A stretch of DNA of 13,214 nucleotides from an uncultured Desulfobacterium sp. Its GTDB lineage: Bacteria > Desulfobacterota > Desulfobacteria > Desulfobacterales > Desulfobacteraceae. Each line of letters starts with the position of its first letter. The first letter of the stretch is position 1. The DNA lies in the NCBI GenBank assembly GCA_937124525.1, contig CAKZLA010000075.1, positions 1 to 13,214 of the forward strand, given 5' to 3'. The notes beneath the pieces are model-generated. The model did not search any database. It was not told the origin of the DNA and saw only the letters and a list, made by a program, of their open reading frames with translations. This document shows, piece after piece, positions 1 through 13,214 of this stretch. The translations under genes were made by a program, and so were the position numbers.

Positions 1-485
1 GATCCGAGAACCATGGTGGCGTTTGTTTTGGCGTTGAATACATCATCTTTACCTGCATGGGTTTTGATGCTCCCTTTGAATGTACTGATTTTTTGGGTGG
101 AAATCAAAATAACACCACCTGCAGCATCGCTTCCATGGGACACCCCGCCCTTGCCTTTAAAAATTTCAATTTTTTCAATATGATCTATATTCACCATATC
201 CCACCGTACCCCGCCGTGGGTGGCAGTGGGATCGTTGAGGGGCTTTCCGTTAACATAAACCTTGACCTTGGATGATCCATGGATGGAAACGGATGTATCG
301 CCGCCCCGGACCCCTGGTACCTGGTTTAATATATCTGCCATGCTATTGACGTTCATGGCTTCAATCTCTTTGGCAGTGATCGTGATGGCATCACTGTCGT
401 CCGAGGCTATTGAAGCTATTGGAAAGTATAAAAACAAACACCAGACCCCCACAATAATTGCCGTAACAACTTGTTTACCTGCCAT
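1..485 (-). CDS. TonB-dependent outer-membrane receptor (BtuB-like), N-terminal part, cut by window edge
   Basis: Outer-membrane gated channel, most likely for corrinoids, powered by TonB. The first 161 codons are visible and the gene runs off the left edge with no stop. Residues 1-28 form a signal peptide (MAGKQVV, then a hydrophobic core ending PIASIAS). A TonB-box-like stretch, DAITITA, sits at 32-38. A plug domain follows, with the hallmarks ILNQVPGVR (52-60), VYVNGKPLNDP (76-86), IEKIEIFKG (103-111) and SDAAGGVILIST (119-130). The ATG at 483-485 is supported by AAGGAAA just upstream. The gene is divergent from the cobalamin-riboswitch operon starting near 860, which points to a cobalamin or cobinamide substrate. 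The plug alone cannot exclude a siderophore or heme. I see no riboswitch on this strand upstream of the gene. Confidence 0.9.
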   Translation of the reverse strand, partial: MAGKQVVTAIIVGVWCLFLYFPIASIASDDSDAITITAKEIEAMNVNSMADILNQVPGVRGGDTSVSIHGSSKVKVYVNGKPLNDPTATHGGVRWDMVNIDHIEKIEIFKGKGGVSHGSDAAGGVILISTQKISTFKGSIKTHAGKDDVFNAKTNATMVLG

Positions 486-573
486 ACCGTTTCCTTGATT
501 TTTCTCTAAAATAAATATCGTATGAAAAAATAATACGGATCGAATGAATTCTAATTTTAGTATGATCCTCGTC

Positions 574-697
574 AGTCCTAAGTTCTTTGCATGTTGTGTA
601 TTGAGATTTGCTAACCCCCTGAAATTATAGAGCCTGTACCTTAAAGCTTGATTTTATAGGTTTTAATGATTTCAATGAGTTATGAGAACTTAGGACT
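574..697. repeat. Inverted-repeat element A, degenerate MITE-like copy
   Basis: A perfect 13-bp inverted repeat, AGTCCTAAGTTCT (574-586) and AGAACTTAGGACT (685-697), encloses about 100 bp without a gene. The right end (TTATGAGAACTTA) resembles the TTATTGAGAACTTAC end of the elements at 9422-9522 and 10998-11203. An internal stretch (ATAGAGCCTGTACC, near 627) aligns with ATAAAGCCTGCTTACC in the 9422 element, so I place it in the same family. A 9-bp direct repeat, AGTATGATC, lies outside at 559-567 and 702-710 but is offset from the inverted repeat by 6 and 4 bp. It is therefore not a clean target duplication. The element sits between the divergent receptor gene and the operon. Confidence 0.6.
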
Positions 698-825
698 CTT
701 GAGTATGATCAAAAACAAAAAAATATTGGAATTTAATGGGTTGAATTGATACAAAGGCAACGTAGGCTAAGCGCTTTTTTTGAATTAGTCAATATATTTT
801 TACCGTCAAATTTATTTTTTTGAGC

Positions 826-854
826 TTGACTTTCTTTTTTATCCTTTGTAATTT
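826..854 (+). promoter_or_regulatory. Possible promoter of the cobalamin-riboswitch operon
   Basis: TTGACT at 826-831 is a good -35 match. TAATTT (849-854, 17-bp spacing) or TGTAAT (847-852, 15-bp spacing) could serve as -10. Either places the transcript start just ahead of the riboswitch aptamer. This is consensus matching only; the -10 is weak or the spacing short. Confidence 0.4.
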
Positions 855-865
855 ACGCAGATAGT

Positions 866-1020
866 TTATCAGGTTTTGCTGTTGCAAATAGGGAATCCCG
901 TGAAAATCGGGAACGGGCCCGCCGCTGTAATCGGGGACGAAAACTGCAAACATGTCACTGGATTTTAACATCTGGGAAGGCGCAGTCAGTAGAGAGATCC
1001 GAAAGCCAGAAGACCTGCTT
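866..1020 (+). ncRNA. Cobalamin riboswitch (aptamer)
   Basis: The conserved core is plain to see: AGGGAATCCCGTGAAAATC then GGGAACGGGCCCGCCGCTGT (about 888-927), matching the family pattern GGGAA..GGTGAAA.TC...CCCGC..CTGT. The signature B12 box follows, AGCCAGAAGACCTGC (1004-1018). The aptamer binds adenosylcobalamin or a related corrinoid and normally lowers expression of the downstream uptake genes. Every gene it could control here fits corrinoid uptake except the CcsA/ResB and peptide/radical SAM genes, which it links to that pathway. The 5' boundary is approximate. Confidence 0.94.
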
Positions 1021-1226
1021 GGTGAACAGAAGCAATTTAACAAAACAGGGGCGTATAGATTAAATTGATTTCCCTTGTACATGACACATAAAACATCACC
1101 GGCTTGACCTGTGAAAATCAGGAGATCAACCTGCCATGTGATGTCAACACTTTTAGTTAAATTGTTTCAGGACACATTGCATGGGAATGCATTTATGTCC
1201 AACATACTCCCATGGATAAAAAAGGG
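1021..1226 (+). promoter_or_regulatory. Structured leader between riboswitch and terminator (expression platform)
   Basis: About 200 nt without a convincing gene. A 7-bp stem, ACATCAC (1093-1099) with GTGATGT (1138-1144), encloses CCTG (1108-1111), CAGG (1119-1122) and CCTG (1130-1133). The middle CAGG can pair with either CCTG, which gives mutually exclusive hairpins. CATGGGA (about 1179-1185) and TCCCATG (about 1208-1214) can form a further stem. The segment around 1118-1134 (ATCAGGAGATCAACCTGCC) resembles a second, interrupted B12 box. I infer a switching platform; the structures were found by eye. Confidence 0.5.
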
Positions 1227-1265
1227 AAATCCACGGATTTGGTAATTATAATCTGTGGATTTTTT
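1227..1265 (+). terminator. Intrinsic terminator ahead of the operon
   Basis: AAATCCACGGAT (1227-1238) pairs with ATCTGTGGATTT (1251-1262), 12 pairs with one G-U, across a 12-nt loop. It runs into a T tract (1260-1265). Lying between the cobalamin riboswitch and the first gene (1282), it is the likely OFF element: ligand binding would favour this hairpin and stop transcription before the operon. Confidence 0.87.
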
Positions 1266-1281
1266 GCGTTTATGGGGGGAC

Positions 1282-1386
1282 ATGAAACACCGAACAAAAC
1301 ATTTTACCTACACTTGCCTCTCTTCTGGCACCTCCATCAGGCTTCCCCACCGCGCATTAGAGGAGGCTGTCCACTACCATGTCTGA
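1282..1386 (+). CDS. cbpA: 34-residue Cys/His-rich peptide, probable radical SAM-modified precursor (CbpA-like)
   Basis: A short gene directly after the riboswitch terminator. It starts MKHRTKHFTYTC and ends ALEEAVHYHV. It contains five His (3, 7, 23, 31, 33), one Cys (12) and two Tyr (10, 32), with no membrane segment and no CXXCH motif. A G-rich stretch, GGGGGGA (1274-1280), precedes the ATG. Its stop (1384-1386) overlaps the ATG of the next gene (1379), so translation is probably coupled. Size, position at the head of an operon ending in a radical SAM/SPASM gene, and riboswitch control fit the precursor of a modified peptide. From memory, family databases list such a pair as CbpA (precursor) and CbpB (enzyme). 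I could not run the comparison, so the name is tentative. The modification, its site and the role (metal or corrinoid handling?) are unknown. Confidence 0.7.
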   Translation: MKHRTKHFTYTCLSSGTSIRLPHRALEEAVHYHV

Positions 1387-2128
1387 ATTCATACAGGACA
1401 GTTTTCTGGCGGCAACCATCTGCTACATCATCAGCCTGGCTTTCATGCTCCGGCATTACAAAACCGGTGCCACTGTTTTTTTAACCGTGGGATGTCTTTG
1501 TAACGCCCTGTCCCTGGGGGTACGGTACTACACCTCTTTTCCCCTGCTTCCCCTTTATCAGAGTTCTTATTTTGTGCCCTGCATTCTTGGTTTTTGTTGC
1601 ATGAAACCGTTTTTTTCCCATTCCGGTCATCCTGTTCATCTGCTGACAGTATCATTTCTGGCCATAACAGCACTGTTATTTCCCAATGATTACTACCTTC
1701 CGTTTTTACAGTTTAAAACCCTCCTTTCCCATTTTTTCTTTCTCTTTGGGGTTGTGGGCAAGGCCATGTTCTTCATGTCCGGCATCTGGGCATTGATGAT
1801 CTTAATGGGATCAGACATTTCAGAAAACACAAAAAAGATGAGCACCACTGCCATGTGGGGATTCTTTTTCTGGACCCTGTCCATTTTTTCCGGTGCGCTG
1901 TGGGCTTATCTGGGGTGGGGCTCACCGGTTATCTGGGATGATCCGCTTTTGAGCACCACCATGGCGGTGTGGCTTTATTATACCCTGTTTTTGCATCTCC
2001 ATCTAATTCCCAGATTATACAGGCCCGTTCCGCGGTCTATCCTGGCCCTGCTGGGGACGATGATTATGTTTGTCAGTACTTGTGTGCCAGAACTTGGCAT
2101 TTTCAGATGGCCGGGGGGGCTCTTGTGA
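1379..2128 (+). CDS. CcsA/CcmC-like heme-handling membrane protein
   Basis: A 249-residue multi-pass membrane protein of the cytochrome c assembly (CcsA/ResC) type. The tryptophan-rich heme-handling motif is W175-AYLG-W180-GSPVI-W186-DDP, followed by AVWLYYTLFLHL (196-207), as in the WA..WG.YW.WDP family pattern. His118 in LLSHFFFLFGVVGKA corresponds by eye to the conserved periplasmic heme-ligand His before that motif. The usual second His near the C-terminus (family form NFLG.G.HSY) is missing; the protein ends STCVPELGIFRWPGGLL. The family passes heme to apocytochrome c together with ResB. No cytochrome gene is present, so the cargo here is open. Start ATG 1379 overlaps the preceding peptide gene by 8 bp; AGGAGG (1361-1366) lies 12 nt upstream, a slightly long spacing. 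The stop overlaps the next start (GTGA). Confidence 0.85.
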   Translation: MSEFIQDSFLAATICYIISLAFMLRHYKTGATVFLTVGCLCNALSLGVRYYTSFPLLPLYQSSYFVPCILGFCCMKPFFSHSGHPVHLLTVSFLAITALLFPNDYYLPFLQFKTLLSHFFFLFGVVGKAMFFMSGIWALMILMGSDISENTKKMSTTAMWGFFFWTLSIFSGALWAYLGWGSPVIWDDPLLSTTMAVWLYYTLFLHLHLIPRLYRPVPRSILALLGTMIMFVSTCVPELGIFRWPGGLL

Positions 2129-2961
2129 AAATAGTTCATACGATGTGGTTTTTTTGTGGGCATATTCACCTGACCCTTGTTATCATTGGCCTTATGATGG
2201 TGGACCTTTTTGTTGGATATCATCCGTTGAAACATCATCCAGAGCTTTTTGCCCCCATCAATGATATGGGATTTTATAAGTGGTCCATGACCTATGGGGT
2301 TCACTATTTAAAACACACGGCCTGGTTATTTATACTGGTGGGACTGCTGGCAAGCCTTTCCATCAACACCTTTGTCTGCACCACCCATCGCATGACAAAG
2401 TTGATCAAACACCGCAGCTCATTTTCCACACCAATTCAATTTTTATTTAGATTATCCCCCCACATCATGCACTACAGCATGCTGCTGATGTTTTTGGGAT
2501 ATCTCATCAGTTATCTCGGTGCCGGTACCCACATGGGAAAGGTCCTACTGCCAGGAATATCCATATCTCTGAGTTCTCCGGCCTGTACCATTACCCTGAA
2601 AAAACTTGACATTGATTACTACCGGGGAGACCGCATTGCCCACATGGAAAAAAGAGCCATTAACGTAAAAGCCGTAATTGAAATTAAAAATGATCACAGG
2701 CAAAAACATGCCACCCTGGGATTTAATCAACCCATCTATTTTTCCCCCATTTCCATCCATTTAAAGGATTTCGCACCCAAAACCAGTGGGGGAATGGAAC
2801 GGAGACGTTTTATTCATGTCATTATCAAAAATGATCCGGGAAAATATTACTATTTTGTGGGCATGTTGTGTTTCACCCTGGGACTGTTCATGTATCTCTG
2901 GGAAAAAAAAGTCAAAAAGGGAGAGTTTAAAGTTTCCCATGGACAAAAAACAAATAAATGA
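2125..2961 (+). CDS. ResB-like (Ccs1) membrane protein, short form
   Basis: A 278-residue protein with the ResB layout: transmembrane segments near 8-30, 66-84 (TAWLFILVGLLASLSINTFVC) and 113-133, a soluble periplasmic region of about 100 residues, and a last membrane segment near 242-260 followed by a basic tail. ResB works with CcsA in System II cytochrome c assembly, delivering heme and keeping Cys residues reduced. Classical ResB is considerably longer, so this is a reduced version. GTG 2125 is chosen because it overlaps the preceding stop (GTGA) and has a G-rich stretch upstream; longer in-frame starts would lie inside the CcsA-like gene. His residues at 5, 13, 15, 60, 64, 113 and 116 are candidate heme ligands by position only. 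Pairing with the CcsA-like protein is inferred from adjacency. Confidence 0.83.
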   Translation: MKIVHTMWFFCGHIHLTLVIIGLMMVDLFVGYHPLKHHPELFAPINDMGFYKWSMTYGVHYLKHTAWLFILVGLLASLSINTFVCTTHRMTKLIKHRSSFSTPIQFLFRLSPHIMHYSMLLMFLGYLISYLGAGTHMGKVLLPGISISLSSPACTITLKKLDIDYYRGDRIAHMEKRAINVKAVIEIKNDHRQKHATLGFNQPIYFSPISIHLKDFAPKTSGGMERRRFIHVIIKNDPGKYYYFVGMLCFTLGLFMYLWEKKVKKGEFKVSHGQKTNK

Positions 2962-2995
2962 CCATGGTTCCGGGCCATTGTCAGGAGAATCAATC

Positions 2996-4117
2996 ATGAA
3001 AAAAAAGGTGCTGGCAATACTTATCTGCGGTTTGTTCATGCTGATCGGGTGTCGTTCAGATGACAAACAACAAGAGGCATCGGATACGAAGTCAGATAAA
3101 ATAAGTTTTATGAGCATTGGGGGCTTTTCCGTTAATCCCATTGAAAAGGGGTGGGTGGAAGTCCGGGACGGAGCGGGCAGGGACTTTGTGCTGATCCCCC
3201 GGGGAGAAACACCACCGGCAGGGTACGAGCCCCGACAGATTATTTATACACCGGTTCAAAGGGTGGCAGCCTATGGCTCCTTTGATGTCGCCATTTTAAA
3301 AGCGCTGGGGGTTTTGGAAGATGTGCTGGTGGGGGTTACCACCAAAAAAAAGGAGTGGACCATTCCCGAGGTTGTAAATGGGATGGAGAAGGGTAAAATA
3401 GCCTTTCTCGGCAATTACAATGCCATTGATTTTGAGCGACTTAAACAATGTGAACCAGAACTTGTGATGACCTGGGATATGTCCATCATCCCCATGGTGG
3501 AAGAGATGGGGGCGGCCTGTGTAATTACCACTACACCGGTGGCCATGTGCCTCAATGCCAGGATGCAGTTTGTCAACTTTATCGCTCCTTTTTTCAACAA
3601 GGAAAAAGAGGCACGGCAATACTTTCACAGGGTGGCGGACTCCCTTGAGCGTATCAGGGAAACCACCCACAACGCCACAGACCAGCCCAAGGTCATGTGG
3701 GGGGATATCTATGAAAAAAGAGTGCTGGTGGAACCCGGGAATGCCTGGGTGGGGGAACTTGTGGGCCTGGCCCAGAGCGATTACCTGTTTGACGATGTGT
3801 TTGGGAAATCCTGCATTGAAATTTCCCTGGAGCGATTTTTATTCAGTGGCCAGGATGCCGAAATTTTCTTTACCTACCGCACCCCGAAAAACGGGGCCAC
3901 CTCCAAGGCGGCCCTTGCCCGGGCCAACCCCATGATTGCCGGATTAAAACCGTTAAAGGACGGTAAGGTATACTCCCCTCTGCCCCACTACACCCAGTCC
4001 GGGGACCGGCTGGATGAAATTTTAACGGACATTGCTGCTATTATTCATCCCTCATGTTATCCGGGATACAAATCTAAATTTTTCAGGGAACTGCCTGACA
4101 ATGATCCAGAATCATGA
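2996..4117 (+). CDS. btuF: BtuF-like corrinoid-binding lipoprotein of an ABC importer
   Basis: A 373-residue substrate-binding protein of the BtuF/FepB fold. It starts with a lipoprotein signal peptide MKKKVLAILI...LIGC, lipidated Cys19, so it should be anchored facing the periplasm. The binding domain starts with the family-typical WVEVRDGAGRDFVLIPRG (53-70) and goes on through VQRVAAYGSFDVAILKALG (87-105) and LGNYNAIDFERL to the C-terminal lobe. It would hand corrinoid collected by the TonB receptor to the BtuC/BtuD importer. ATG 2996 is preferred over longer in-frame starts because AGGAG sits 8 nt upstream and the signal peptide begins there. It lies 34 bp after the ResB-like gene. The substrate is inferred from the riboswitch, not from binding residues; a siderophore-type ligand is possible but less likely. 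Confidence 0.9.
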   Translation: MKKKVLAILICGLFMLIGCRSDDKQQEASDTKSDKISFMSIGGFSVNPIEKGWVEVRDGAGRDFVLIPRGETPPAGYEPRQIIYTPVQRVAAYGSFDVAILKALGVLEDVLVGVTTKKKEWTIPEVVNGMEKGKIAFLGNYNAIDFERLKQCEPELVMTWDMSIIPMVEEMGAACVITTTPVAMCLNARMQFVNFIAPFFNKEKEARQYFHRVADSLERIRETTHNATDQPKVMWGDIYEKRVLVEPGNAWVGELVGLAQSDYLFDDVFGKSCIEISLERFLFSGQDAEIFFTYRTPKNGATSKAALARANPMIAGLKPLKDGKVYSPLPHYTQSGDRLDEILTDIAAIIHPSCYPGYKSKFFRELPDNDPES

Positions 4118-4166
4118 GCCAAAATATGAAAATTCATGAATTTAAAGGGAAAAATAAGGTGACGCA

Positions 4167-5225
4167 TTGACAACCACAGCAATCCAGCCTTCGGGCACCA
4201 TGGCATTTCGCCGGGGGGTGATGAAGCGACAAAAGTTATGCCTTGCCATCGTTGGCATTCTGTTATTGGTTTTTATGGCCGTGAATATTCTGGTGGGATC
4301 GGTGACCATCCCCTTTTCTGAAATGCTGGACATTTTGTTGCATCATGACACCACCAGCACCAAAGGATTTATTATCTGGAACATCAGAATTCCCCGGGCC
4401 ATTGCGGCAGGGTTGGGGGGGGCTTACCTGTCTGTGGCAGGTCTGTTACTCCAGGTTTATTTTAGAAACCCCATTGTGGGGCCATTTATTCTGGGCATCT
4501 CATCCGGGGCCACGCTTTTTGTATCGGTGGTGATGCTAAGCACCATCTCATTGGGCTTTACCGTGTTAAATCCTTTCATGTGCACCCTTGCCGCCTTTGC
4601 CGGGGCATATGGTACCATGCTCGTTGTATTAAGTGTTGCCACCCGGGTTAAAAACGGGGTGACCCTGCTCATTGTTGGGCTTATGATGGGTTATTTATGC
4701 CATGCCGTCACCAGTGTACTGGTGGCCTTTGCAGAAAAGGAGAAAATAAAGGGATTTGTTCTGTGGCAACTGGGAAGCTTTTCAGGATTTAAATGGACCG
4801 AGATTGAAATCATGCTGGTGGTGGGAGGGGCTATTCTTGTGCTGGTCTATTTTCTGGCCAAACCCCTTAATGCATTTTTGCTGGGTGAAGATTATGCCGC
4901 ATCCATGGGGGTTAACATCAAATTATTCCGCATGCTGATTTTGTTGAGTGCCTGTGCCCTTGCCGGCATGGTCACTTCTGTGGCCGGGCCCGTGGCCTTT
5001 GTAGGCCTTGCGGTTCCCCATATGGTCCGGCTTTTATTCTCCACCTCGGACAATAAAATTCTCATTCCCGGCACCATATTGGTGGGGGCCATGATCATCA
5101 GTTTGTGTGATTTTATTGCCCGCATGGTCTTTTCCCCTGTGGAACTTCCCATCAGTGCCGTCACCGCCTTTTTCGGGGCGCCGGTGGTGTTAAGCCTGCT
5201 CATGAAAAGGAGGGTTGACATATGA
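4167..5225 (+). CDS. btuC: BtuC-like permease of cobalamin ABC importer (FecCD family)
   Basis: A 352-residue inner-membrane permease with about ten membrane segments. Family motifs are clear: IRIPRAIAAGLGGAYLSVAG (73-92), LLLQVYFRNP (93-102), LGISSGATL (109-117), the cytoplasmic LLGEDYAASMG (238-248), AGPVAFVGLAVPHMVRLL (273-290) and ELPISAVTAFFGAP (326-339). It forms the translocation path and docks the ATPase through the 280-290 region. The chosen start is TTG 4167, preceded by AAGG at 7 nt. ATG 4200 and ATG 4221 are alternatives without a well-spaced ribosome site, and they would trim only the cytoplasmic N-terminus. The stop overlaps the next ATG (ATGA). Confidence 0.94.
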   Translation: MTTTAIQPSGTMAFRRGVMKRQKLCLAIVGILLLVFMAVNILVGSVTIPFSEMLDILLHHDTTSTKGFIIWNIRIPRAIAAGLGGAYLSVAGLLLQVYFRNPIVGPFILGISSGATLFVSVVMLSTISLGFTVLNPFMCTLAAFAGAYGTMLVVLSVATRVKNGVTLLIVGLMMGYLCHAVTSVLVAFAEKEKIKGFVLWQLGSFSGFKWTEIEIMLVVGGAILVLVYFLAKPLNAFLLGEDYAASMGVNIKLFRMLILLSACALAGMVTSVAGPVAFVGLAVPHMVRLLFSTSDNKILIPGTILVGAMIISLCDFIARMVFSPVELPISAVTAFFGAPVVLSLLMKRRVDI

Positions 5226-6433
5226 ACACTCCAAAAACCATCTTATCCACCCGGGATCTTTGTGTTGGCTATCCCAAAAAAGAGATTCTTAAGGGGGTGG
5301 CGTTAGAGTTTTCCAAGGGAGAATTCATCTCCCTTTTAGGACCCAATGGGGCTGGTAAAACAACCCTTTTGAGGACCTTGTCCAAACACCTTAAATCCAT
5401 CAATGGCCAGGTGCTGATCAACAATGAAGATCTGTGCATCATCAAACAGGAACACCTGGCCCGGACCATGTCCGTGGTGCTCACGGAAAAGGTGACGCCC
5501 CCCCTGTTTAAGGTGTATGATTTTGTGGCCATGGGCCGCTATCCACACACCCATTGGAGCGGCAGGCTGGAAGAAAAAGACGATGGGGTAATCATGGAAG
5601 CCCTCACCATGGTCCATGCCCAGGACCTTGTTTTCAGAGATCTTTCCACCCTTAGTGACGGTGAACGACAAAAGGTATTGGTGGCAAGGGCACTGGCCCA
5701 GCAGCCGGATATTATTTTATTAGATGAACCCACCATGCATCTGGACTTGAAACACCGCATGGAGGTGATGTCCATCCTCCAGCGACTGTGCCGGGACAAG
5801 GGGATCTGCGTTGTTGCCTCCCTCCACGATGTGGATCTTGCCGCCAAGCTCTCCGATAAAGTGGCCCTGGTAAAAGGGGGCATAATTCAAGCCTTTGGTC
5901 CCCCGGAAAATGTGCTGCAGGATGACACGGTAACAGAACTTTATGACTTCAGTAATGCTTGTTTCAACCGGATGCTTGGCACCATTGAAATGAAAAATAA
6001 TGAAAAAAAAGGCAAGGTGTTTGTGGTGGGGGGCATGGGCAGTGCATCGGTGCTTTATCGGCTGTTGGCCAAAAAAGAGTACCAGATTTTCACTGGCATG
6101 CTCCACCAGAATGATATTGATTACCATGTGGCCCATTCCCTGGGGGCCCACTGCCTGGTACAGCCTTACATAGATACCTTTTCAAAGGAAATATGCCAGT
6201 GGGCAAAGGAGGAGATGAGGCAGTGCGAATGGGTCGTTGACACGGGATTTACCCTGGAAAAAGTAAATGTGGACAATATCGACCTGTTAAAAGATGCCCT
6301 GGCCATGAAAAAACCATTGCTCAGCCTGAGAAACGGTCAGAGCCGGGCCCATTTCACGGCCCAGGAATACGATGAAATACACTTTTGGGACGATGAATGC
6401 CAGCTTGTGGATGAGATGGAAACCATGTCGTGA
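5222..6433 (+). CDS. btuD: BtuD-like ABC ATPase with extra C-terminal domain
   Basis: A 403-residue protein. Residues 1-255 are a FecE/BtuD ATPase: Walker A GPNGAGKTT (40-48), signature LSDGERQ (144-150), Walker B IILLDEPT (164-171), D-loop HLDL (173-176) and switch His202. At the Q-loop position I read VVLTEK (85-90), with Thr88 where Gln is usual; I recall this variant in BtuD relatives. Residues about 264-400 are an added domain starting KVFVVGGMGSASVLYRLL, with a Gly-rich nucleotide-fold look (strand, GGxGS, helix), then GMLHQNDIDY and HSLGAHCLVQ. Similar tails occur in other corrinoid-type ATPases; their function is unknown to me. It drives import through BtuC, overlaps btuC by 4 bp and overlaps the next gene by 4 bp. 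Confidence 0.95.
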   Translation: MNTPKTILSTRDLCVGYPKKEILKGVALEFSKGEFISLLGPNGAGKTTLLRTLSKHLKSINGQVLINNEDLCIIKQEHLARTMSVVLTEKVTPPLFKVYDFVAMGRYPHTHWSGRLEEKDDGVIMEALTMVHAQDLVFRDLSTLSDGERQKVLVARALAQQPDIILLDEPTMHLDLKHRMEVMSILQRLCRDKGICVVASLHDVDLAAKLSDKVALVKGGIIQAFGPPENVLQDDTVTELYDFSNACFNRMLGTIEMKNNEKKGKVFVVGGMGSASVLYRLLAKKEYQIFTGMLHQNDIDYHVAHSLGAHCLVQPYIDTFSKEICQWAKEEMRQCEWVVDTGFTLEKVNVDNIDLLKDALAMKKPLLSLRNGQSRAHFTAQEYDEIHFWDDECQLVDEMETMS

Positions 6434-7503
6434 ATTCCATCTCCCATGAAATTCCCATGAATTTTTCCCCGGATTACCTTATATTAATGCTCACCGATGC
6501 CTGTAACCTTGAGTGTGCCTATTGTTATCTGGGGAAAAATAAATCCAGCCACACCATGGCACCCTCCATAATTGATCGGGCCATTGATCTTGCCCTGGCA
6601 TCGGAAACCCCCTTTCATGTGCAGCTTTCCGGAGGGGAACCCACTTTGGTCCCCCAGGCGGTGAATCATGCCGCACAGCGGCTCAGAACATTAAGCCCGG
6701 CCTCCACCCTGGGACTCCAGACCAACGCCACCTGCATTGACAGGACCATGGCCGATATGATGCTGCAATTTCATATGTATGTGGGGGTGAGCCTTGACGG
6801 CCCGCCACACATACAAGAAAAACTCCGGGGGAAGGCAAAGGAGACCTTTCAGGGACTTCAGTATCTGGAAGAGCGGAAAATTCCCTTCACCATAACCACC
6901 GTGGTCACCCGGGAAAATGTCTTCCATCTCCACTCCCTTGTCATGGTGTTGGGGGGATTTGCCCAGGCCCGGGGCCTGGGCCTGGATCTGCTGGTTCACA
7001 AGGGCAATGCGCCAAAGGGCCTTGCACCTGGTCCATCTGCATTGGAAAAGGGGATTAAAAAAATGGTGACCGCCCTTGATGCGGTGAACCGGATGCGACA
7101 CGTCCCTTTGCAATTAAGGGAGCTGAACCGCCTGATATCACCTGTTCAGGGCAAAACCGCCAGCCACTTCTGCCATGCCGCCATCCATAAAAGTCTGGCC
7201 GTCACCCCCCGGGGCGATCTTTATCCCTGTAGCCAAACCGCCTTTGATCCTGATTTCTCCTGGGGGACCCTGGATAATCCCCATTTTATGAATGCCCCGA
7301 TGTCCCTGGCCCGGGTGGACCCGGCAAAGGATCTTGGCAGGGACGACTGCCGGACCTGCTTTCTGGCAGACAGATGCCCCGGAGATTGTCCCGGCAGAAT
7401 TCATTACAATGGGAATGCCCAGTTAGCCTGCGTTATGTATAAAACACTGTTTACTCACAATATTAAATTAACGGATAAGTCTACAAGTGTTAAGACAGTA
7501 TAA
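6430..7503 (+). CDS. cbpB: Radical SAM/SPASM peptide-modifying enzyme (CbpB-like)
   Basis: A 357-residue radical SAM enzyme. The [4Fe-4S]-SAM motif is C25-NLE-C29-AY-C32, followed by LSGGEPTL (66-73) for SAM binding, TNAT (98-101) and VGVSLDGP (118-125). The C-terminal third carries a SPASM-type set of Cys for auxiliary clusters: C248, C267 (YPCSQ), then C307-x2-C310-x5-C316-x3-C320 in CFLADRCPGDCPGR, and C334. This layout is typical of enzymes that modify ribosomal peptides. The expected substrate is the 34-residue peptide at 1282, encoded at the other end of the same operon. I recall a CbpA/CbpB family pair of this kind, but the name is from memory. GTG 6430 overlaps the preceding stop (GTGA). 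ATG 6457 is an alternative start with no ribosome site and would remove nine residues. Confidence 0.87.
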   Translation: MNSISHEIPMNFSPDYLILMLTDACNLECAYCYLGKNKSSHTMAPSIIDRAIDLALASETPFHVQLSGGEPTLVPQAVNHAAQRLRTLSPASTLGLQTNATCIDRTMADMMLQFHMYVGVSLDGPPHIQEKLRGKAKETFQGLQYLEERKIPFTITTVVTRENVFHLHSLVMVLGGFAQARGLGLDLLVHKGNAPKGLAPGPSALEKGIKKMVTALDAVNRMRHVPLQLRELNRLISPVQGKTASHFCHAAIHKSLAVTPRGDLYPCSQTAFDPDFSWGTLDNPHFMNAPMSLARVDPAKDLGRDDCRTCFLADRCPGDCPGRIHYNGNAQLACVMYKTLFTHNIKLTDKSTSVKTV

Positions 7504-7507
7504 CATG

Positions 7508-7529
7508 TTAAAATAATTTATTATTTTAA
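7508..7529 (+). terminator. AT-only hairpin after the radical SAM gene
   Basis: TTAAAATAA (7508-7516) and TTATTTTAA (7521-7529) form a 9-bp stem with a 4-nt loop, five bases after the stop. All pairs are A-T and only short T runs follow, so it is a weak terminator or an RNA end-protecting hairpin. Confidence 0.35.
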
Positions 7530-7563
7530 TTGATTTTGATAATTTATTTTTTAAAAAAATGAC

Positions 7564-7591
7564 ATGGGTATTGAAGGGCATTCCCATTTTT
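7564..7591 (+). terminator. Possible intrinsic terminator of the corrinoid operon
   Basis: ATGGG (7564-7568) and CCCAT (7583-7587) pair across a 14-nt loop and run into TTTTT. The stem is short, but its position 60 bp past the last operon gene, before a convergent gene, is right for a terminator. The rest of 7504-7713 is AT-rich with no gene visible. Confidence 0.45.
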
Positions 7592-7713
7592 CAAGGCACT
7601 TGCAATTTTAGGCTGGCAAATTTTATGCTCATTTTCTCATGGTTGTAGCTAATAACTATCTGATTATTAAACTAAATTGCCAGGACAATATTTGTGGACT
7701 TATCTGATCGATA

Positions 7714-9270
7714 TCATCCAATTGATCTGTCTTTGTCTGTCCAAAAATGTCTTTTGACCTCTCTTCTTAATATTTTGCCTACAGCTGTTTTTGGTAAAGA
7801 TTTCCAAACTATAATTTCCTTTGGACACTTGTAACCAGCCAGCTTTTTTTTGCAAAAAAACATTAATTCATCGGGTAAGACAGAGGCCCCTTCTTTGATT
7901 GTAACCACAGCAACAATTTTCTCGCCCCACTTTGTGTCAGGGGCTGAGGTCACTGCACACTCCATCACCTCCGAATTTTCGTAAAGGACATCTTCGACCT
8001 CCTTGGGATAGACGTTTTCACCTCCGGTAACAATCATATCTGCTTTGCGATCAAGCATATAAATATAGCCGTCTTCATCAACAGTACCCATGTCCCCGGT
8101 GTGAAGCCATCCATTCCTCAAAACCTGTTTGGTCAGTTCCGGATTCTTCCAGTATCCCATCATGATGTTTTTGCCCCGTGCAACAACTTCTCCGGCTTCA
8201 CCCGGTTTGACCTCTTGATCGTTTTTATCAACCACCGTTGCATTAACCATAAAAGATTCCCTGCCGGCACTGGAGAGACGTCTGGTTATTTTTTCTGATC
8301 CTTCCAGAATATGATCTTCAGGCAAAAGAGTAGATACCACTGGGGCTGCCTCGGTCAACCCGTAGCCCTGGGAAAAAATATTGCCAAATTTTTCTATTAA
8401 TCTCTTGAGTACATCCGGTGGGATAGGGCTTCCTGAATAGTTCATCAACCTTAAACTGGAAAGATCGAAGACATCTAATTCAGGCACGTTCAGGAGCCAC
8501 GTATAAAGAGTGGGAACCATATTAATCCATGTACATTTTTCATCCTGGATCAATTTTAAAATCTCTATTAATTCGGGTCGTCGTGCAATTACCACTTTCC
8601 CCCCCACCATGTGTATACAAAGCACAGCCCATAACGCTATGTGAAAAAACGGCAAAACAAAACAAGCTGTATCTTTTTTTGTAACTGAGTAATCAAATAT
8701 TGCTGAATAAGAGGATGTTAACAAATTGCGGTGGGAAAGCATGACTCCTTTGGGCAAACCAGTTGTTCCACCCGTATACATCAGGATGACCATGTCATTT
8801 TCATCGACATCCGTCAGTGGATCGATATTTGAAGATACCTTAAGTAAATCTTCATAAAATAGAAATTGACTTTTCTGGATATCCATGGATATCCAGTGTC
8901 TAATATTTATTAGACCTGTTTTCAACCCGATACTGCGCTCTTCATAACCGTCACCTACTATAAACAAGGTTGCTTCACTATCATTAACTATATGTATGAT
9001 CTCGTTATCGCTAAGACGAAAATTTAATGGCGTAACGCTCATCCCGAGCTTACCCGCAGCATAGTACACTTCCATATATTTATAAGTGTTTTCGGCAAGG
9101 ATTGTCAGCCTGTCGCCTTTTTTGCAGCCTAATTTGAGGAGCGCATTGGCCAGCTGGTTTACTCTGTCATCCATCTGCCTATATGTTATCCTTATACCCT
9201 CAAAGATCATTGCCTCATTATCTGGACAAAGTTTTCTGTATTTCCGTGAAACATCACCTATTGTGTACAT
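7714..9270 (-). CDS. AMP-forming acyl-CoA synthetase (fatty/aromatic acid CoA ligase type)
   Basis: A 518-residue ANL-superfamily ligase joining a carboxylic acid to CoA through an acyl-AMP. Motifs: phosphate loop YTGGTTGLPKG (165-175), YGLTEAAP (303-310), TGD (391-393), hinge/C-domain LDRKADMIVTGGENVYPKEVE (406-426), and catalytic Lys499 in PKTAVGKILRR. Length and motifs fit cytosolic medium- or long-chain fatty acid or aromatic acid ligases; the substrate cannot be read from sequence. The ATG at 9268-9270 is chosen because AAGGAG (9277-9282) lies 6 nt ahead; a start 45 bp further upstream has no such site. Mobile-element debris separates it from the outer-membrane and CoA-transferase genes, which are on the same strand, so it may once have belonged to the same cluster. 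Confidence 0.95.
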   Translation of the reverse strand: MYTIGDVSRKYRKLCPDNEAMIFEGIRITYRQMDDRVNQLANALLKLGCKKGDRLTILAENTYKYMEVYYAAGKLGMSVTPLNFRLSDNEIIHIVNDSEATLFIVGDGYEERSIGLKTGLINIRHWISMDIQKSQFLFYEDLLKVSSNIDPLTDVDENDMVILMYTGGTTGLPKGVMLSHRNLLTSSYSAIFDYSVTKKDTACFVLPFFHIALWAVLCIHMVGGKVVIARRPELIEILKLIQDEKCTWINMVPTLYTWLLNVPELDVFDLSSLRLMNYSGSPIPPDVLKRLIEKFGNIFSQGYGLTEAAPVVSTLLPEDHILEGSEKITRRLSSAGRESFMVNATVVDKNDQEVKPGEAGEVVARGKNIMMGYWKNPELTKQVLRNGWLHTGDMGTVDEDGYIYMLDRKADMIVTGGENVYPKEVEDVLYENSEVMECAVTSAPDTKWGEKIVAVVTIKEGASVLPDELMFFCKKKLAGYKCPKEIIVWKSLPKTAVGKILRREVKRHFWTDKDRSIG

Positions 9271-9276
9271 GCTCAT

Positions 9277-9282
9277 CTCCTT
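9277..9282 (-). promoter_or_regulatory. Ribosome binding site of the acyl-CoA synthetase
   Basis: AAGGAG on the - strand, 6 nt ahead of the ATG at 9270. It decides the start over an upstream in-frame ATG at 9315. Confidence 0.85.
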
Positions 9283-9413
9283 TATGAACTGTATTGCATT
9301 TAGATAAAAAGACATGGTTTAAAACAACAGCGACACTTGGATACCCCAAACCATGACTCCGGCAATACAGTTGTGTACCAACAATCCCATGACCTTTTTC
9401 ACTGACATAACCG

Positions 9414-9530
9414 ATGAAAAAGTAAGTTCTCAATAACCTGGGTTGATAAAGCCTGCTTACCCTTTAAATGCCGGTGCTATTCAAAAGGATTCTCTGAATG
9501 CCCGAACTTATTGAGAACTTACATGAAAAA
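9414..9530. repeat. MITE-like element B (101 bp) with 8-bp target duplication
   Basis: A perfect 15-bp inverted repeat, GTAAGTTCTCAATAA (9422-9436) and TTATTGAGAACTTAC (9508-9522), bounds a 101-bp element with no coding capacity. Both ends are directly flanked by the 8-bp sequence ATGAAAAA (9414-9421 and 9523-9530), a clean target-site duplication. The ends and internal blocks match the elements at 574-697 and 10998-11203. It is a non-autonomous element moved by a transposase not present here. It split a decayed CoA-transferase fragment from its original neighbour sequence. Confidence 0.88.
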
Positions 9531-9634
9531 ATTCAAAACCACAATTTTCTTGAACATCTTTTAGTGAATAACCCGGAATTTACAGAAATAATTCGAATTC
9601 GTTTGATTTCGGCTCAAAAGCCATCACCGCCATG
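9531..9634 (-). pseudogene. Decayed fragment of a second CoA-transferase B-subunit gene
   Basis: Read on the - strand, this stretch aligns with the intact gctB gene at about 11365-11468. Identity is roughly 85-90 percent by eye over some 105 bp. It has a one-base deletion and a nearby one-base insertion, which put a stop (TAA) between them. Predicted residues on either side are conserved (MAVMAFEPKS, then YSLKDVQENCGFEF against YSLKDVKENCGFEL). Differences include conservative codon changes, so it may derive from a paralogue rather than from a recent copy of the neighbour. Homology begins right at the stop codon of the outer-membrane gene (9635-9637) and ends at element B. Nothing functional is expected from it. 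Confidence 0.85.
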
Positions 9635-10552
9635 TTAAAATAGGTATGCTATTCTGGCTCCGATAAAATTTTCTTTTGTGCCATTTTCAACTTCCAGGTC
9701 AGTCTGATATTGAATGGAGAGTAGGGTTTGCGGGGACAACTGCATGGCAGCTGTAAATCTAATTATTTGTGTTTCTGTCTCGTTATCCAGATTCACACCG
9801 TCGGCCTCATTCTCATTTCCTTTCTTGAAGTAATAACTTGTTCCCACCCAAAATGAGCCTGAGTCTGTAATATCGTAGCTTATATGACCTTGAACCAAAT
9901 ATTCTGGATCTCGCTCTAAGGTTACAGATGCTGGAGAATAATCGTCATTGTCAGAAAAAAATTTGGCGCTTGCAGCTATTTCGATATAAGTTTTTCCAAA
10001 ATGCAACATCATTGGGTAAAATTCAAATTCCACGGCCCACATGTTTTCCGCGATATTTACAGCATCGTCATTATCGTAATCTCCGGTGGGTGCCGTTATG
10101 AAAATTGAAGGAGAGATTCTATATTGAACTTTATTTGTATTTATCAGGCAAGGAAAATCTATGTGCAATCCTAAGGTTGTATCTCCTATCGCATTTGACT
10201 GTGCATCAATACCAAGAATATTTGATTCAAGATCCAGCTGCCCAAAAACCTGTATGATATCTGCACTGAATGTCCAACCGTCTTCTAATGTCCAGTCATC
10301 CCCCAACCCCCAAAATTGAACATATCTGGCGAGTCCAAACGTAAAATCAAGATCAGCGTTCCCATCGAGTTTAGTGCCATTTTTATAAAAAGAATCCGCG
10401 CTTATAAATCTTTGATAATAGAGAAAAATCTTTGACCCATCAGGTGCTGGCCAAGGGTCCCTTGGGTCGTTCATGGTAGCAAAAGATAAAATAGGGGATA
10501 GTAATTGTGGTACTATGACTAATACTAATACCGACATCTTTATTCTTTTCAT
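9635..10552 (-). CDS. Outer-membrane channel, MetA/phenol-degradation transporter type
   Basis: A 305-residue predicted outer-membrane beta-barrel. It has a signal peptide (MKRIKMSVLVLVIVPQ, cleavage near LSFA), alternating strands, the internal motif IGDTTLGLHIDFP, the segment SPSIFITAPTGDYDND, and a C-terminal aromatic residue (IAYLF) as expected for barrel insertion. It resembles proteins found in aromatic and hydrocarbon degradation clusters that are thought to pass hydrophobic compounds across the outer membrane. Start ATG 10552 is chosen for the signal peptide and GAGG upstream. An in-frame ATG at 10648 with a better site (AAGGAG, 7 nt ahead) would add 32 residues before the signal peptide. 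The stop codon lies at the junction with the pseudogene fragment. Neighbouring CoA-activating genes suggest uptake of an organic acid; the substrate is unknown. Confidence 0.83.
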   Translation of the reverse strand: MKRIKMSVLVLVIVPQLLSPILSFATMNDPRDPWPAPDGSKIFLYYQRFISADSFYKNGTKLDGNADLDFTFGLARYVQFWGLGDDWTLEDGWTFSADIIQVFGQLDLESNILGIDAQSNAIGDTTLGLHIDFPCLINTNKVQYRISPSIFITAPTGDYDNDDAVNIAENMWAVEFEFYPMMLHFGKTYIEIAASAKFFSDNDDYSPASVTLERDPEYLVQGHISYDITDSGSFWVGTSYYFKKGNENEADGVNLDNETETQIIRFTAAMQLSPQTLLSIQYQTDLEVENGTKENFIGARIAYLF

Positions 10553-10997
10553 GATCGACCTCTTTGTCTTTTGTCCCTCTCCTTTTGTCCCAAAAAAAGG
10601 TTGTCTGCAATCCATAAAACAAATGTCTTTTTTGGCTCTCTTTAGCATTTTTTTTCTCCTTGTTCTTTTTATGTTGTTCTGTGAAGGTGCTTCCACTGTG
10701 TTAAGATAGAAGTCGCACCAGGTGTTAAGAAGGGTAAATAATGAAGGTGACAAAAACCAGCGAATACCTTATAGGGACTTGGACGATAATAAACTACCAA
10801 ATTAAATTTTTTTATACTGCAATATCAGCATATTAAACTGAACATAGTGGTAGCCTATTTTCGGGGAAGTCCCCGGACGGGCCGATCTGCCAATTAACTT
10901 GTTTGAAAAAATATAGAGGTTAAAAATTATGAAACAGGAATCTCTGGTAGGGAAGCATAAAATCTTGTCATCGTGTTATTCTGTCCCAAATACCGAT
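10553..10997. other. Intergenic stretch upstream of the outer-membrane gene
   Basis: There is no convincing gene. On the - strand a strong ribosome site (AAGGAG, 10656-10661) precedes ATG 10648, which opens the 32-codon in-frame extension of the outer-membrane gene. The 10-mer CTTTTGTCCC occurs twice between about 10566 and 10590. A short G/C hairpin, GGGGAAGTCCCC, lies at 10863-10874. I cannot assign a function to the rest. Confidence 0.4.
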
Positions 10998-11211
10998 GTA
11001 AATTCTCAAAAAATCGGGTATTAAAAGGCTGCTTTCGCATAGCACCAGACGTTAAAAGAATAAAACAGGCTTTAGGGAGTTCATTAAAAATAATATACCC
11101 AACATCAATAAGGTTCATACCGACTCTCCAGAGTGCTGCATGCAAGAGTGGGTAGTTTTATTATGATGAAGTCCCTTATTGCCCAGGGTTATTGAGAACT
11201 TACATACCAAT
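10990..11211. repeat. MITE-like element C (206 bp) with near-perfect 8-bp target duplication
   Basis: The right end TTATTGAGAACTTAC (11189-11203) is identical to that of element B. The left end GTAAATTCTCAAAAA (10998-11012) matches the family end at 13 of 15 positions. Flanks are ATACCGAT (10990-10997) and ATACCAAT (11204-11211), 7 of 8 identical, an aged target duplication. Internal blocks next to both ends (GGGTATTAAAAGGCTGCTT; TTGCCCAGGG) align with element B. At 206 bp it is twice as long as B, so B may be an internal deletion form. Open frames inside are short and unrecognised; I do not call a gene. Confidence 0.77.
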
Positions 11212-11257
11212 TTATCAAATCATTGAACTAACTGACATTTTAAATAGTCGCAATTAA

Positions 11258-12028
11258 TCATTTTCGTCCAATTACATAGCCATATGGATCTACGTCTTCC
11301 CTCAGTACGCGAAGCTCATTCTCACTGGGTGGTAATGTCTCTCCAATTTTTTGAGCTTCTAAAAGTTCAAATCCACAATTCTCTTTAACATCTTTTAGTG
11401 AATAACCCGGGTTGATAGAAATAATTCGCATTCGTTTTGATTCCGGCTCAAAATCCATCACCGCCATGTTCGTGATAATTTTATTAGGTCCAGTGCCCAG
11501 GGGCAGTCCTGATTCTTCTCTGGATAGCCCACCTTGCAACCAGCCCGGCGTGGTAACAAAATCAATTTTTTCTACGAATCGTTTCGAATCCTGCGGCGTC
11601 ATCACCATTGTTTTCCAGCAAAAAGATGCAAAATCGTTAGCACCGCCACTTCCTGGAAATCGCACTTTTGGGCTTGCATGATCACCAATCACCGTGGAGT
11701 TAAGATTTCCATACATGTCAATTTGTGCTCCCCCCAAAAATGTATAATCCACAAACCCCCGTGCACAGTATTCCATAGTGTCTCCCATACTGCCTGCCAT
11801 GACAGCATGGAATGTAGTCCGTGAGTCACCAACGGAAATCGGCATCTCCGGCAGATGTGGAGCAAATCCTCCGGCTTCAAAAATTATCACCAAATCTGGA
11901 GCACTTATTTTCTGCGCCAGCATGGCGGCAGCGCAGGGCGCTCCGGTACCCACACCTACTGTGGCACCGTTTTCAAGTTCCCGGGAGGCCACTGAAATCA
12001 TTAATTCCATTGCATTATAGTCTGTCAC
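11258..12028 (-). CDS. gctB: Glutaconate-type CoA-transferase, subunit B
   Basis: A 256-residue family I CoA-transferase beta subunit. It aligns along its whole length with Acidaminococcus GctB as I remember it: VGTGAPCAAAMLA (26-38), APDLVIIFEAGG (43-54), FLGGAQIDMYGNLNST, GSGGANDFASF, KIDFVTTPGW and REDVDPYG. Glu51 in IIFEAGG sits where GctB has the catalytic Glu that carries CoA as a thioester. This favours a true transferase over the related ring-cleaving IpdB, which as I recall lacks that Glu. It moves CoA between carboxylic acids in the cytoplasm as a heteromer with subunit A, encoded 3 bp upstream. The start is GTG 12028 with GGGAGG about 10 nt ahead. The true acid substrate is unknown. 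Confidence 0.94.
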   Translation of the reverse strand: MTDYNAMELMISVASRELENGATVGVGTGAPCAAAMLAQKISAPDLVIIFEAGGFAPHLPEMPISVGDSRTTFHAVMAGSMGDTMEYCARGFVDYTFLGGAQIDMYGNLNSTVIGDHASPKVRFPGSGGANDFASFCWKTMVMTPQDSKRFVEKIDFVTTPGWLQGGLSREESGLPLGTGPNKIITNMAVMDFEPESKRMRIISINPGYSLKDVKENCGFELLEAQKIGETLPPSENELRVLREDVDPYGYVIGRK

Positions 12029-12031
12029 GAT

Positions 12032-13051
12032 TTAGGCCTCCCTATACAAAAGCAGTTCTTTGGCGCGAAGATCTCGCATCTTTGCTCCACCACCGTTAAG
12101 CCGAATGTACTCTTCATGATCTTTGCAGTCATAAATATTCCGGTTCAGGAAATTCTTAAATTTTTCAGGCTCTTTTTCCACTGTAAGCCATTCTTTCAGA
12201 TGTTCCTCATCGGAAAAGTATTCATCATACATGGTTCCCGGATAAGCTCCGAAAGGCACTTCGCACACTGCATCAACCAAGTGGTAGGGAATTTTTGTAG
12301 ATGAAGGATCTTGTTTAATCGTATCATTGGGGATCAATCGCTCTGTGGTAATGATGAGTCGTTTTGATGCATTAACCAGGTCCAGATCTGATACAGCTAT
12401 CCCCTTAAAGCGACAATTGCCATAAATATCGGCTTCATGCACATGGACTATTGACACGTCCGGAGACAAGGCGGGTAGCAGGACTAATTTTTTTCCAGTG
12501 TAAGGACACATGGCAATCTTGGCTGCACTATATTTAAAGGTATCTGTTCCCATCATATTCCGCGTAGGTAGATAGGGCACTCCCATGGCTGCAGCTTTCA
12601 GGCGGAGGGTGAGGGCATAATTGGTCCATTCTGTTACATTAACTTTGCCGCTTTCCACATATTTACGTGAGCAACTGGAAAGGCCACGTGCTTCAAGTCC
12701 AATCACATAGGCTACATCAAGACGGTCATAGACCTCTCCAGCACTCAATACCTGCATATCGTGTGTGGCAGTGTGACCGGCAAATCCCATATGTTTTTTT
12801 CCCTGTCGGACGATTTCATGACAGGCTGCTAAGGGCGTTCTATTTACTCCAAAGCCGCCTATCGCAAGATAATCACCATCATGTACAAATTTCTCTACAG
12901 CTTCTTTCAGGCCCATGACTTTGTTCGTCATTTTTCGGTCTTTTTTTTGATAAAAAGAGCGGATTAAATCAGGATCAGGATTCATGAACAACGGCCCAAT
13001 CCCGTGATCAAAATTTTCCATTCTCCCTTTCTCATTTACTTGTTGAGTCAT
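12032..13051 (-). CDS. gctA: Glutaconate-type CoA-transferase, subunit A
   Basis: A 339-residue family I CoA-transferase alpha subunit, partner of the B subunit directly downstream. The family core begins KVMGLKEAVEKFVHDGDYLA (44-63), followed by IGGFGVNRTPLAACHEIVRQG (64-84), VIGLEARGLS, AAAMGVPYLPTRNMMGTDTF, DVSIVHVHEADIYGN, VDAVCEVPFGAYPG and the C-terminal KDHEEYI. It has an N-terminal extension of about 40 residues compared with Acidaminococcus GctA. The segment PLFMNPDPDLIRSFY resembles the extension seen in some Desulfobacterota relatives, so I keep a long form. ATG 13051 has only a weak, distant GTGAG; ATG 13021 with AAGG close by is an equal candidate, and ATG 12931 would give the short form. 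It ends 3 bp before gctB, so the two are surely co-expressed. Confidence 0.93.
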   Translation of the reverse strand: MTQQVNEKGRMENFDHGIGPLFMNPDPDLIRSFYQKKDRKMTNKVMGLKEAVEKFVHDGDYLAIGGFGVNRTPLAACHEIVRQGKKHMGFAGHTATHDMQVLSAGEVYDRLDVAYVIGLEARGLSSCSRKYVESGKVNVTEWTNYALTLRLKAAAMGVPYLPTRNMMGTDTFKYSAAKIAMCPYTGKKLVLLPALSPDVSIVHVHEADIYGNCRFKGIAVSDLDLVNASKRLIITTERLIPNDTIKQDPSSTKIPYHLVDAVCEVPFGAYPGTMYDEYFSDEEHLKEWLTVEKEPEKFKNFLNRNIYDCKDHEEYIRLNGGGAKMRDLRAKELLLYREA

Positions 13052-13214
13052 TTTTTTAAATTCTCACTTTTCATTATTGAATACCCCCTTTTCTCTCATT
13101 TTCATAACATCTTGTAATCAAAACAAAATATCAACATAATTTGTAAATATTCGGTTTGCTTATGTAAATGTTTGGACAGTGCCCCATATTCGCCTGTTTG
13201 GGGCTGCGTAGCAT
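13052..13214 (-). promoter_or_regulatory. AT-rich upstream region of gctA
   Basis: No gene is visible. TGTAAAT occurs twice (13142-13148 and 13163-13169), spaced 21 bp start to start, and ACATAA (13134-13139) faces TTATGT (13160-13165). This region should hold the gctAB promoter and perhaps an operator. No convincing -35/-10 pair can be fixed, and the binding protein is unknown. Confidence 0.3.

Follow-up and report, generated by a model that had tools for sequence, protein, structure and literature searches.

We analyzed a 13,214-nucleotide stretch of DNA (the window, taken at its full length) from an uncultured Desulfobacterium sp. (assembly GCA_937124525.1, contig CAKZLA010000075.1, positions 1 to 13,214 of the forward strand) and find that a pair of membrane proteins resembling the cytochrome c assembly proteins CcsA and ResB is linked to the corrinoid importer BtuFCD. 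This link is real and not accidental, and the pair belongs to one subtype of the importer. Behind a cobalamin riboswitch, six genes are supported (ccsA-like, resB-like, btuF, btuC, btuD, and a radical SAM/SPASM enzyme gene). An earlier reading made from the letters alone (the sequence-only reading) had counted seven near-gapless genes; six of these stand, and the seventh, a small peptide, does not. Based on the evidence below, we propose, at a probability of about 0.42, that this is a corrinoid-uptake operon in which the CcsA/ResB pair may serve as a dedicated accessory, a heme-b electron conduit that would reduce the corrinoid, with the radical SAM/SPASM enzyme taking part in the salvage programme.

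The evidence for the link comes from comparing gene neighborhoods across genomes. An alignment-based scan gave 72 radical SAM loci (a scan with a single radical SAM protein gave no matches), and 17 of these carry a BtuF of the window's subtype (at least 44% identity). A resB-like gene lies directly upstream of the subtype btuF at 16 of the 17, preceded by a ccsA-like gene in 14 of those 16; the contigs of L007 and L018 stop inside resB. At L049 the contig ends at the pair, leaving BtuF out of view; L016, which has distant BtuF copies only (28-34%), has no pair. Searches with a ResB profile point the same way. Among 147 genomes sampled from the class, nine full-length matches reach at least 260 bits and all nine are flanked by ccsA and btuF (four of these genomes had contributed rows to the profile and five had not), and in a tenth genome, G048, the match is cut at a contig end (144 bits) with btuF and btuC present. 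In a sample of 247 genomes from the phylum, 7/7 matches of at least 290 bits fall inside the same module (three of the seven genomes had contributed profile rows), as do 8/8 strong matches (at least 233 bits) in the 25 genomes whose radical SAM loci have no pair nearby. Lower scores of 60-100 bits in the class sample come from six genomes and one second copy, and ordinary ResB proteins score about 26-54 bits. The usual gene order is ccsA-resB-btuF-btuC-btuD-(radical SAM)-cobN-(chlD-chlI). The start of ccsA is in view at 15 loci, and a cobalamin riboswitch stands directly upstream at ten of them (L001, L002, L003, L017, L029, where it is truncated by the contig end, L048, L055, L056, L060, and L069). 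At L004 and L043 the riboswitch precedes TonB-receptor genes that in turn precede ccsA, at L034 and L054 it is found only much farther upstream, and at L049 an Rfam scan upstream of ccsA found no cobalamin riboswitch.

The sequence features of the pair identify it as a derivative of the proteins that handle heme in cytochrome c assembly, with the predicted transmembrane heme ligands kept and the external heme-delivery site partly lost. We aligned its histidines against those of genuine CcsB (12 sequences) and ResB (7) and find that one transmembrane histidine per subunit, H206 in CcsA and H116 in ResB, is kept in 15/15 cases, while P-His2 is present at the aligned position in 0/15. The outer Trp of the WWD segment is kept and the middle Trp is Val or Ile in 15/15. 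The periplasmic region of the ResB-like protein is much shorter than in genuine ResB, most of it being missing, and the CcsA-like protein scores under the cut-off of the curated CcsB family TIGR03144 (37.9 versus 187.6 bits). The fold of the core helices is shared with the heme-handling (WWD) family, CcsBA and CcmF. Because P-His2 and the middle WWD Trp are absent, the pair probably does not work as a cytochrome c synthase, and the label “cytochrome c biogenesis protein” is misleading for such genes. The transmembrane histidine pair and core fold are what it has in common with CcsBA/ResBC (System II), from which it differs in these two missing residues, in the shorter ResB periplasmic region, and in its linkage to a B12 importer. 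It is further removed from CcmF (System I), with 12% identity in a structural alignment, no CcmE or CcmH partners seen, and an altered external site.

As the sequence-only reading had it, genes for a binding protein (BtuF), a permease (BtuC), and an ATPase (BtuD) of corrinoid import follow the riboswitch. In its sequence, the N-terminus of the BtuF-like protein resembles the signal of a lipoprotein (LIGC). The best NCBIfam matches of the BtuC-like and BtuD-like proteins are BtuC (200 bits, under the cut-off of 334) and the ATPase of a corrinoid ATP-binding cassette (ABC) transporter (217 bits, under the cut-off of 537). The BtuD-like protein also has a C-terminal extension after the ATPase (5950-6433), which the corrinoid ATPase model partly covers (profile positions up to 351/402). 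Since both scores are under the curated cut-offs, the case for corrinoid specificity is built on the riboswitch, the neighbors, and the best-matching models; from the riboswitch and neighbors, corrinoid would be the substrate. B12 import is commonly presented with just a receptor, a binding protein, and an ABC transporter. The window shares with BtuB-BtuFCD import the TonB receptor, binding protein, FecCD permease, ATPase, and riboswitch, and differs in adding the CcsA/ResB pair and the radical SAM enzyme and in the sub-threshold scores of BtuC and BtuD.

The radical SAM/SPASM enzyme is likewise upheld as a member of the operon, and we find that it belongs to corrinoid salvage in general. Three radical SAM cysteines (CxxxCxxC) and seven in a SPASM pattern are invariant in 36 sequences; the Pfam SPASM score is under its cut-off (14.0 versus 21.5 bits). 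Profile and fold searches both place anSME (anaerobic sulfatase maturase) first among the nearest solved relatives (model pLDDT 90.4). The enzyme shares the radical SAM/SPASM fold and cysteine pattern with anSME and PapB, and differs from them in its corrinoid neighborhood and in scoring far under the curated NCBI cut-offs (PapB, 103 versus 340 bits; anSME, TIGR03942, 94.4 versus 349.45 bits). CbpB (TIGR04163), which we take to stand for a “cobopeptide” protein, was tried as an identity and rejected (64 versus 375 bits), and a literature search for CbpB turned up nothing relevant; NirJ-type tetrapyrrole chemistry was rejected as well (48 bits). A large protein search returned 547 relatives at E <= 0.001, orthology not being established for all of them. 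Within 6 kb of the enzyme gene at the 72 loci, we count CobN 47 times, BtuC 31, BtuF 31, BtuD 30, TonB receptor 29, CbiZ 24, nitrilase-like protein 23, ChlD 19, ChlI 19, ResB 14, CcsA 13, CobA 11, TIM-barrel protein 11, and CbiK 9 (many loci are on short contigs, and names were verified on one representative each). The nitrilase-like and TIM-barrel proteins recur in corrinoid clusters, for example L012:3380-4948 and L030:3363-4364. Where a locus extends 6 kb or more in both directions from the gene, a corrinoid gene is found within 6 kb in 29/31, the two without being L070 and L071. The sequence-only reading had held that related genomes with these genes apart from corrinoid transport would speak against it; this count and the strong ResB matches place both components with corrinoid genes, and its tie between pair and importer stands for strong matches, with the divergent pairs described below falling outside it.

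The enzyme and the pair also tend to occur together. Of the class-sample genomes, 11 carry the enzyme (E <= 1e-40) and 10 carry the ResB type: both occur in 10, the enzyme alone in G124, ResB alone in 0, and neither in 136 (Fisher p 1e-14; leaving out the four ResB-profile genomes gives 7e-10). For the phylum sample the corresponding numbers are 12 genomes with the enzyme, 7 with the ResB type, and 6 with both (p 2e-8, or 1e-4 without the profile genomes). CobN is present in 10/10 genomes with enzyme and ResB type and in 29/147 overall, and is not in G124. The CobN-type proteins of the class sample fall into two classes, one in a single piece at about 1000-1330 bits and one in two pieces at about 500-570; all 10 pair-bearing genomes have the one-piece class, mostly at 1290 bits or more.

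How might the pair and the importer work together? We suggest that cobalamin would shut the operon off through the riboswitch, and that when the operon is on, the TonB receptor and BtuFCD would bring corrinoid in. The pair, as a dedicated accessory of this BtuFCD subtype, may carry electrons across the inner membrane as a heme-b conduit and could reduce the cobalt of a corrinoid held by BtuF or BtuC. Such reduction would loosen the upper ligand of the corrinoid, either for transport or for metal exchange. The radical SAM enzyme would share a salvage programme with CobN and ChlD/I, modifying a protein of the system or the corrinoid itself and not a small peptide. Transmembrane heme ligands without a complete delivery site fit an electron conduit. 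There are precedents. The transmembrane heme of CcmF has been proposed as an electron relay that reduces heme (PMC10663686), and FpvG, an inner-membrane reductase of ferripyoverdine, cooperates with binding proteins of the periplasm and an ABC importer (PMC6954188). The FpvG/FpvCF/FpvDE arrangement resembles our proposal in combining reductase, binding proteins, and importer; its substrate is different, and the likeness we draw is one of function. A Bacteroides locus with CcsA-named genes is strongly induced under iron limitation (PMC10434189), which may hint that CcsA-like proteins take part in metal uptake elsewhere. More speculatively, and as a possibility we hold less firmly, a pair of the c-synthase type may have been turned into an inner-membrane corrinoid reductase in anaerobes, passing electrons from heme b to cobalt at BtuFCD as the first step of a reduce-import-re-metallate route with CobN-ChlDI and the dedicated enzyme. 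The sequence-only reading had the pair moving, reducing, or loading a tetrapyrrole; loading as done by CcsBA is unlikely because a ligand of the external heme site is missing, and the pair may instead move or reduce one.

The main rival to an electron conduit is that the pair is a tetrapyrrole channel, which would move corrinoid (or heme) with its external site refitted from bis-histidine heme to corrinoid. A corrinoid with its loop is bulkier than heme, which speaks against such a channel, as does the absence of P-His2 in every case; moreover BtuFCD already carries corrinoid inward, and CcsBA exports heme. The CcsBA fold and the constant linkage to a corrinoid importer are in its favor, together with the shift of heme from a transmembrane to an external site by CcsBA (described in PMC6299221 and PMC10663686), and on balance we regard a channel as rather unlikely. 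It is also conceivable that the true cargo of the operon is a different tetrapyrrole, for instance heme taken up to recover its metal; CobN would then act as an HmuS-like de-chelatase, and the riboswitch would only link expression to B12 status. According to PMC12583661, the CobN-like HmuS takes iron out of heme, and the BtuD-like protein scores nearly as well with heme ATPase models (203 bits) as with the corrinoid model (217 bits). That same paper describes HmuS as ATP-independent, yet ChlD/I occur in 19/72 loci; the cobalamin riboswitch is present here, and most relatives have one ahead of the pair; CbiZ, CobA, and CbiK are among the neighbors; and the CobN of the L001 locus is over its curated cut-off (945 versus 822 bits), so that heme import seems distinctly improbable. 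(The L001 CobN, of 1291 amino acids at 11494-15369, follows the radical SAM gene.) Slightly more improbable still is a maturation role, in which the pair would assemble a heme protein dedicated to the system, whether a cytochrome c or another kind: family membership by Pfam and fold would suit this role, and against it are the loss of P-His2, of the middle WWD Trp, and of most of the ResB periplasmic region, together with full CcsB genes found away from the pair in 6/6 genomes searched.

For the enzyme, it is possible, if still short of probable, that the corrinoid ring or its side chains are tailored rather than a protein. The steady corrinoid neighborhood, with CobN foremost, and the lack of a recurrent peptide partner fit corrinoid tailoring, whereas the profile and fold searches group the enzyme with modifiers of proteins and peptides, anSME first, and the family scores run the same way, with NirJ well below PapB and anSME. 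Taken together, the corrinoid-salvage neighborhood and the likeness to anSME make modification of a protein or of corrinoid a better fit than a peptide product. The sequence-only reading had the enzyme act under corrinoid scarcity, making a modified Cys/His peptide from a 34-amino-acid open reading frame (ORF) in front of ccsA. The enzyme class would allow this, and the ORF has two possible upstream signals in the leader. However, in a comparison of a single sequence pair (window versus L001), the ORF and the same-length L001 frame differ 11, 12, and 7 times at codon positions 1, 2, and 3 (32 codons), where the adjoining ccsA differs 32, 13, and 83 times (249 codons); the ORF thus lacks a sign of coding constraint in this pair. 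In the more distant loci compared, the region ahead of ccsA holds no counterpart, and among 1576 small ORFs (18-120 amino acids) within 6.5 kb of the enzyme gene in the window and the 72 loci there is no recurrent precursor-like family. By our reading, the families that do recur are riboswitch, antisense, or gene-fragment frames, judged from the first 8 members of each family (at least 3 loci) and 30 two-locus groups, which include two pairs resembling ordinary small proteins (L002/L010 and L011/L030). Given the codon pattern, the synteny, and the small-ORF results, we reject the ORF as a gene and consider a peptide product highly improbable, although a precursor could lie unlinked elsewhere in the genome. 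A motif search for SGTS-like peptides gave scattered frames only. A conserved family of 46-57 amino acids occurs at four loci (L005:9814-9954, L013:2312-2485, L041:1350-1529, and L014 near 7481), not near the window, and has no Pfam match over cut-off.

Several points weigh against the conduit proposal. P-His1 is kept in 12/15, which means that part of the external heme site survives. One locus, L058, has a subtype btuF without the pair, and divergent CcsA/ResB pairs (about 60-160 bits) exist apart from subtype BtuFCD. The co-occurrence counts and p values given above ignore kinship. Among the 25 genomes of enzyme loci without a nearby pair, the ResB type turns up elsewhere in 9 (one copy being a fragment) and is missing from 16; because of these 16, enzyme and pair do not form an obligate unit. 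In the window no cobN stands next to the radical SAM gene, though L001 has one there, and BtuC and BtuD both fall short of the corrinoid cut-offs. Finally, heme, redox activity, corrinoid binding, and contact with BtuF are put forward here as proposals from sequence and analogy.

Parts of this system have a known setting. CobN and ChlD/I have been found beside B12 transport genes and CbiZ, in Chlorobium and others, and metal insertion into acquired corrinoid has been suggested (PMC8620254); a frameshifted chlD and Co-chelatase are also in print (PMC9227772). The loci described here share these genes; the passages of PMC8620254 consulted name no CcsA/ResB pair, and the paper has 0 occurrences of “radical SAM”. 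Our searches of open-licence papers, judged from titles, abstracts, and passages, did not turn up any report linking a CcsA/ResB pair, or this radical SAM family, to corrinoid uptake. A heme-handling pair that is fixed to one importer subtype and has lost part of its cytochrome-building site suggests that import includes a further step at the inner membrane, and an enzyme family of unassigned role is placed in corrinoid salvage by the 72 loci. The divergent pairs may extend this. Some stand with TonB receptors (L107, L110, L112, L169, L171) and perhaps form a wider family of uptake-linked conduits, hinting that conduits of this kind could serve other imported compounds; those at L173-L180 gave no match to any corrinoid query. 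Some of the TonB-linked pairs are accompanied by ExbB-like proteins, FecCD-type ABC genes, or a molybdopterin-domain protein.

Features of the window (positions within the 13,214-nucleotide stretch; aa, amino acids)
Feature	Position	Strand	Evidence
TonB-dependent receptor, 5' part, Plug domain, divergent, exits window	1..485	-	PF07715, 71.4 bits
Cobalamin riboswitch aptamer	854..1036	+	RF00174, 106.3 bits versus gathering 31.5 (over threshold)
Terminator-like hairpin, 16 bp then U tract	1224..1265	+	Fold of 1195-1275
ORF of 34 aa, proposed peptide, judged not a gene	1282..1386	+	Codon-position pattern, no distant counterpart
CcsA-like membrane protein, 249 aa	1379..2128	+	PF01578
ResB-like membrane protein, 278 aa, GTG start	2125..2961	+	PF05140, 28.2 bits versus cut-off 24.6; alignment
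BtuF-like periplasmic binding protein	2996..4117	+	PF01497, 64.1 bits
BtuC-like FecCD permease, TTG start	4167..5225	+	PF01032, 268 bits
BtuD-like ATPase with C-terminal extension	5222..6433	+	PF00005, 100.5 bits
Radical SAM/SPASM enzyme, 357 aa, GTG start	6430..7503	+	PF04055, 49.0 bits

The layout of the window agrees with the riboswitch and terminator that had been read from the letters. The nearest named relative is Desulfocicer vacuolatum (locus L001), with identities of 94% for BtuC, 89% for BtuF, 88% for BtuD, 87% for ResB, 85% for CcsA, and 76% for the radical SAM enzyme, so that the window probably comes from a sulfate reducer akin to it. Its leader is also conserved, with 168/183 bases of the aptamer kept and 61/65 bases of the hairpin region (1206-1270). 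The stretch 1195-1275 around the hairpin folds at -23.4 kcal/mol (z -3.2), and the hairpin is the probable expression platform. The six plus-strand genes are spaced by -4, 34, 49, -4, and -4 nt, and a convergent AMP-binding gene comes after the radical SAM gene, with no cobN at 7504-7713. A fold search for a terminator 3' of the radical SAM gene gave no significant fold. The window's TonB receptor is 84% identical over 160 amino acids to a receptor in L001 and 32-50% identical to receptors at other radical SAM loci. The genome of L001 (G001) has 17 cobalamin riboswitches. Riboswitch counts in this analysis come from the Rfam model only, a B12-box regular expression having missed riboswitches including the window's own. 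Farther downstream in the window, unrelated to the operon, are minus-strand genes for a PF13557 protein and a CoA transferase (9635-10753 and 11258-12028) and a further ORF at 12032-13051.

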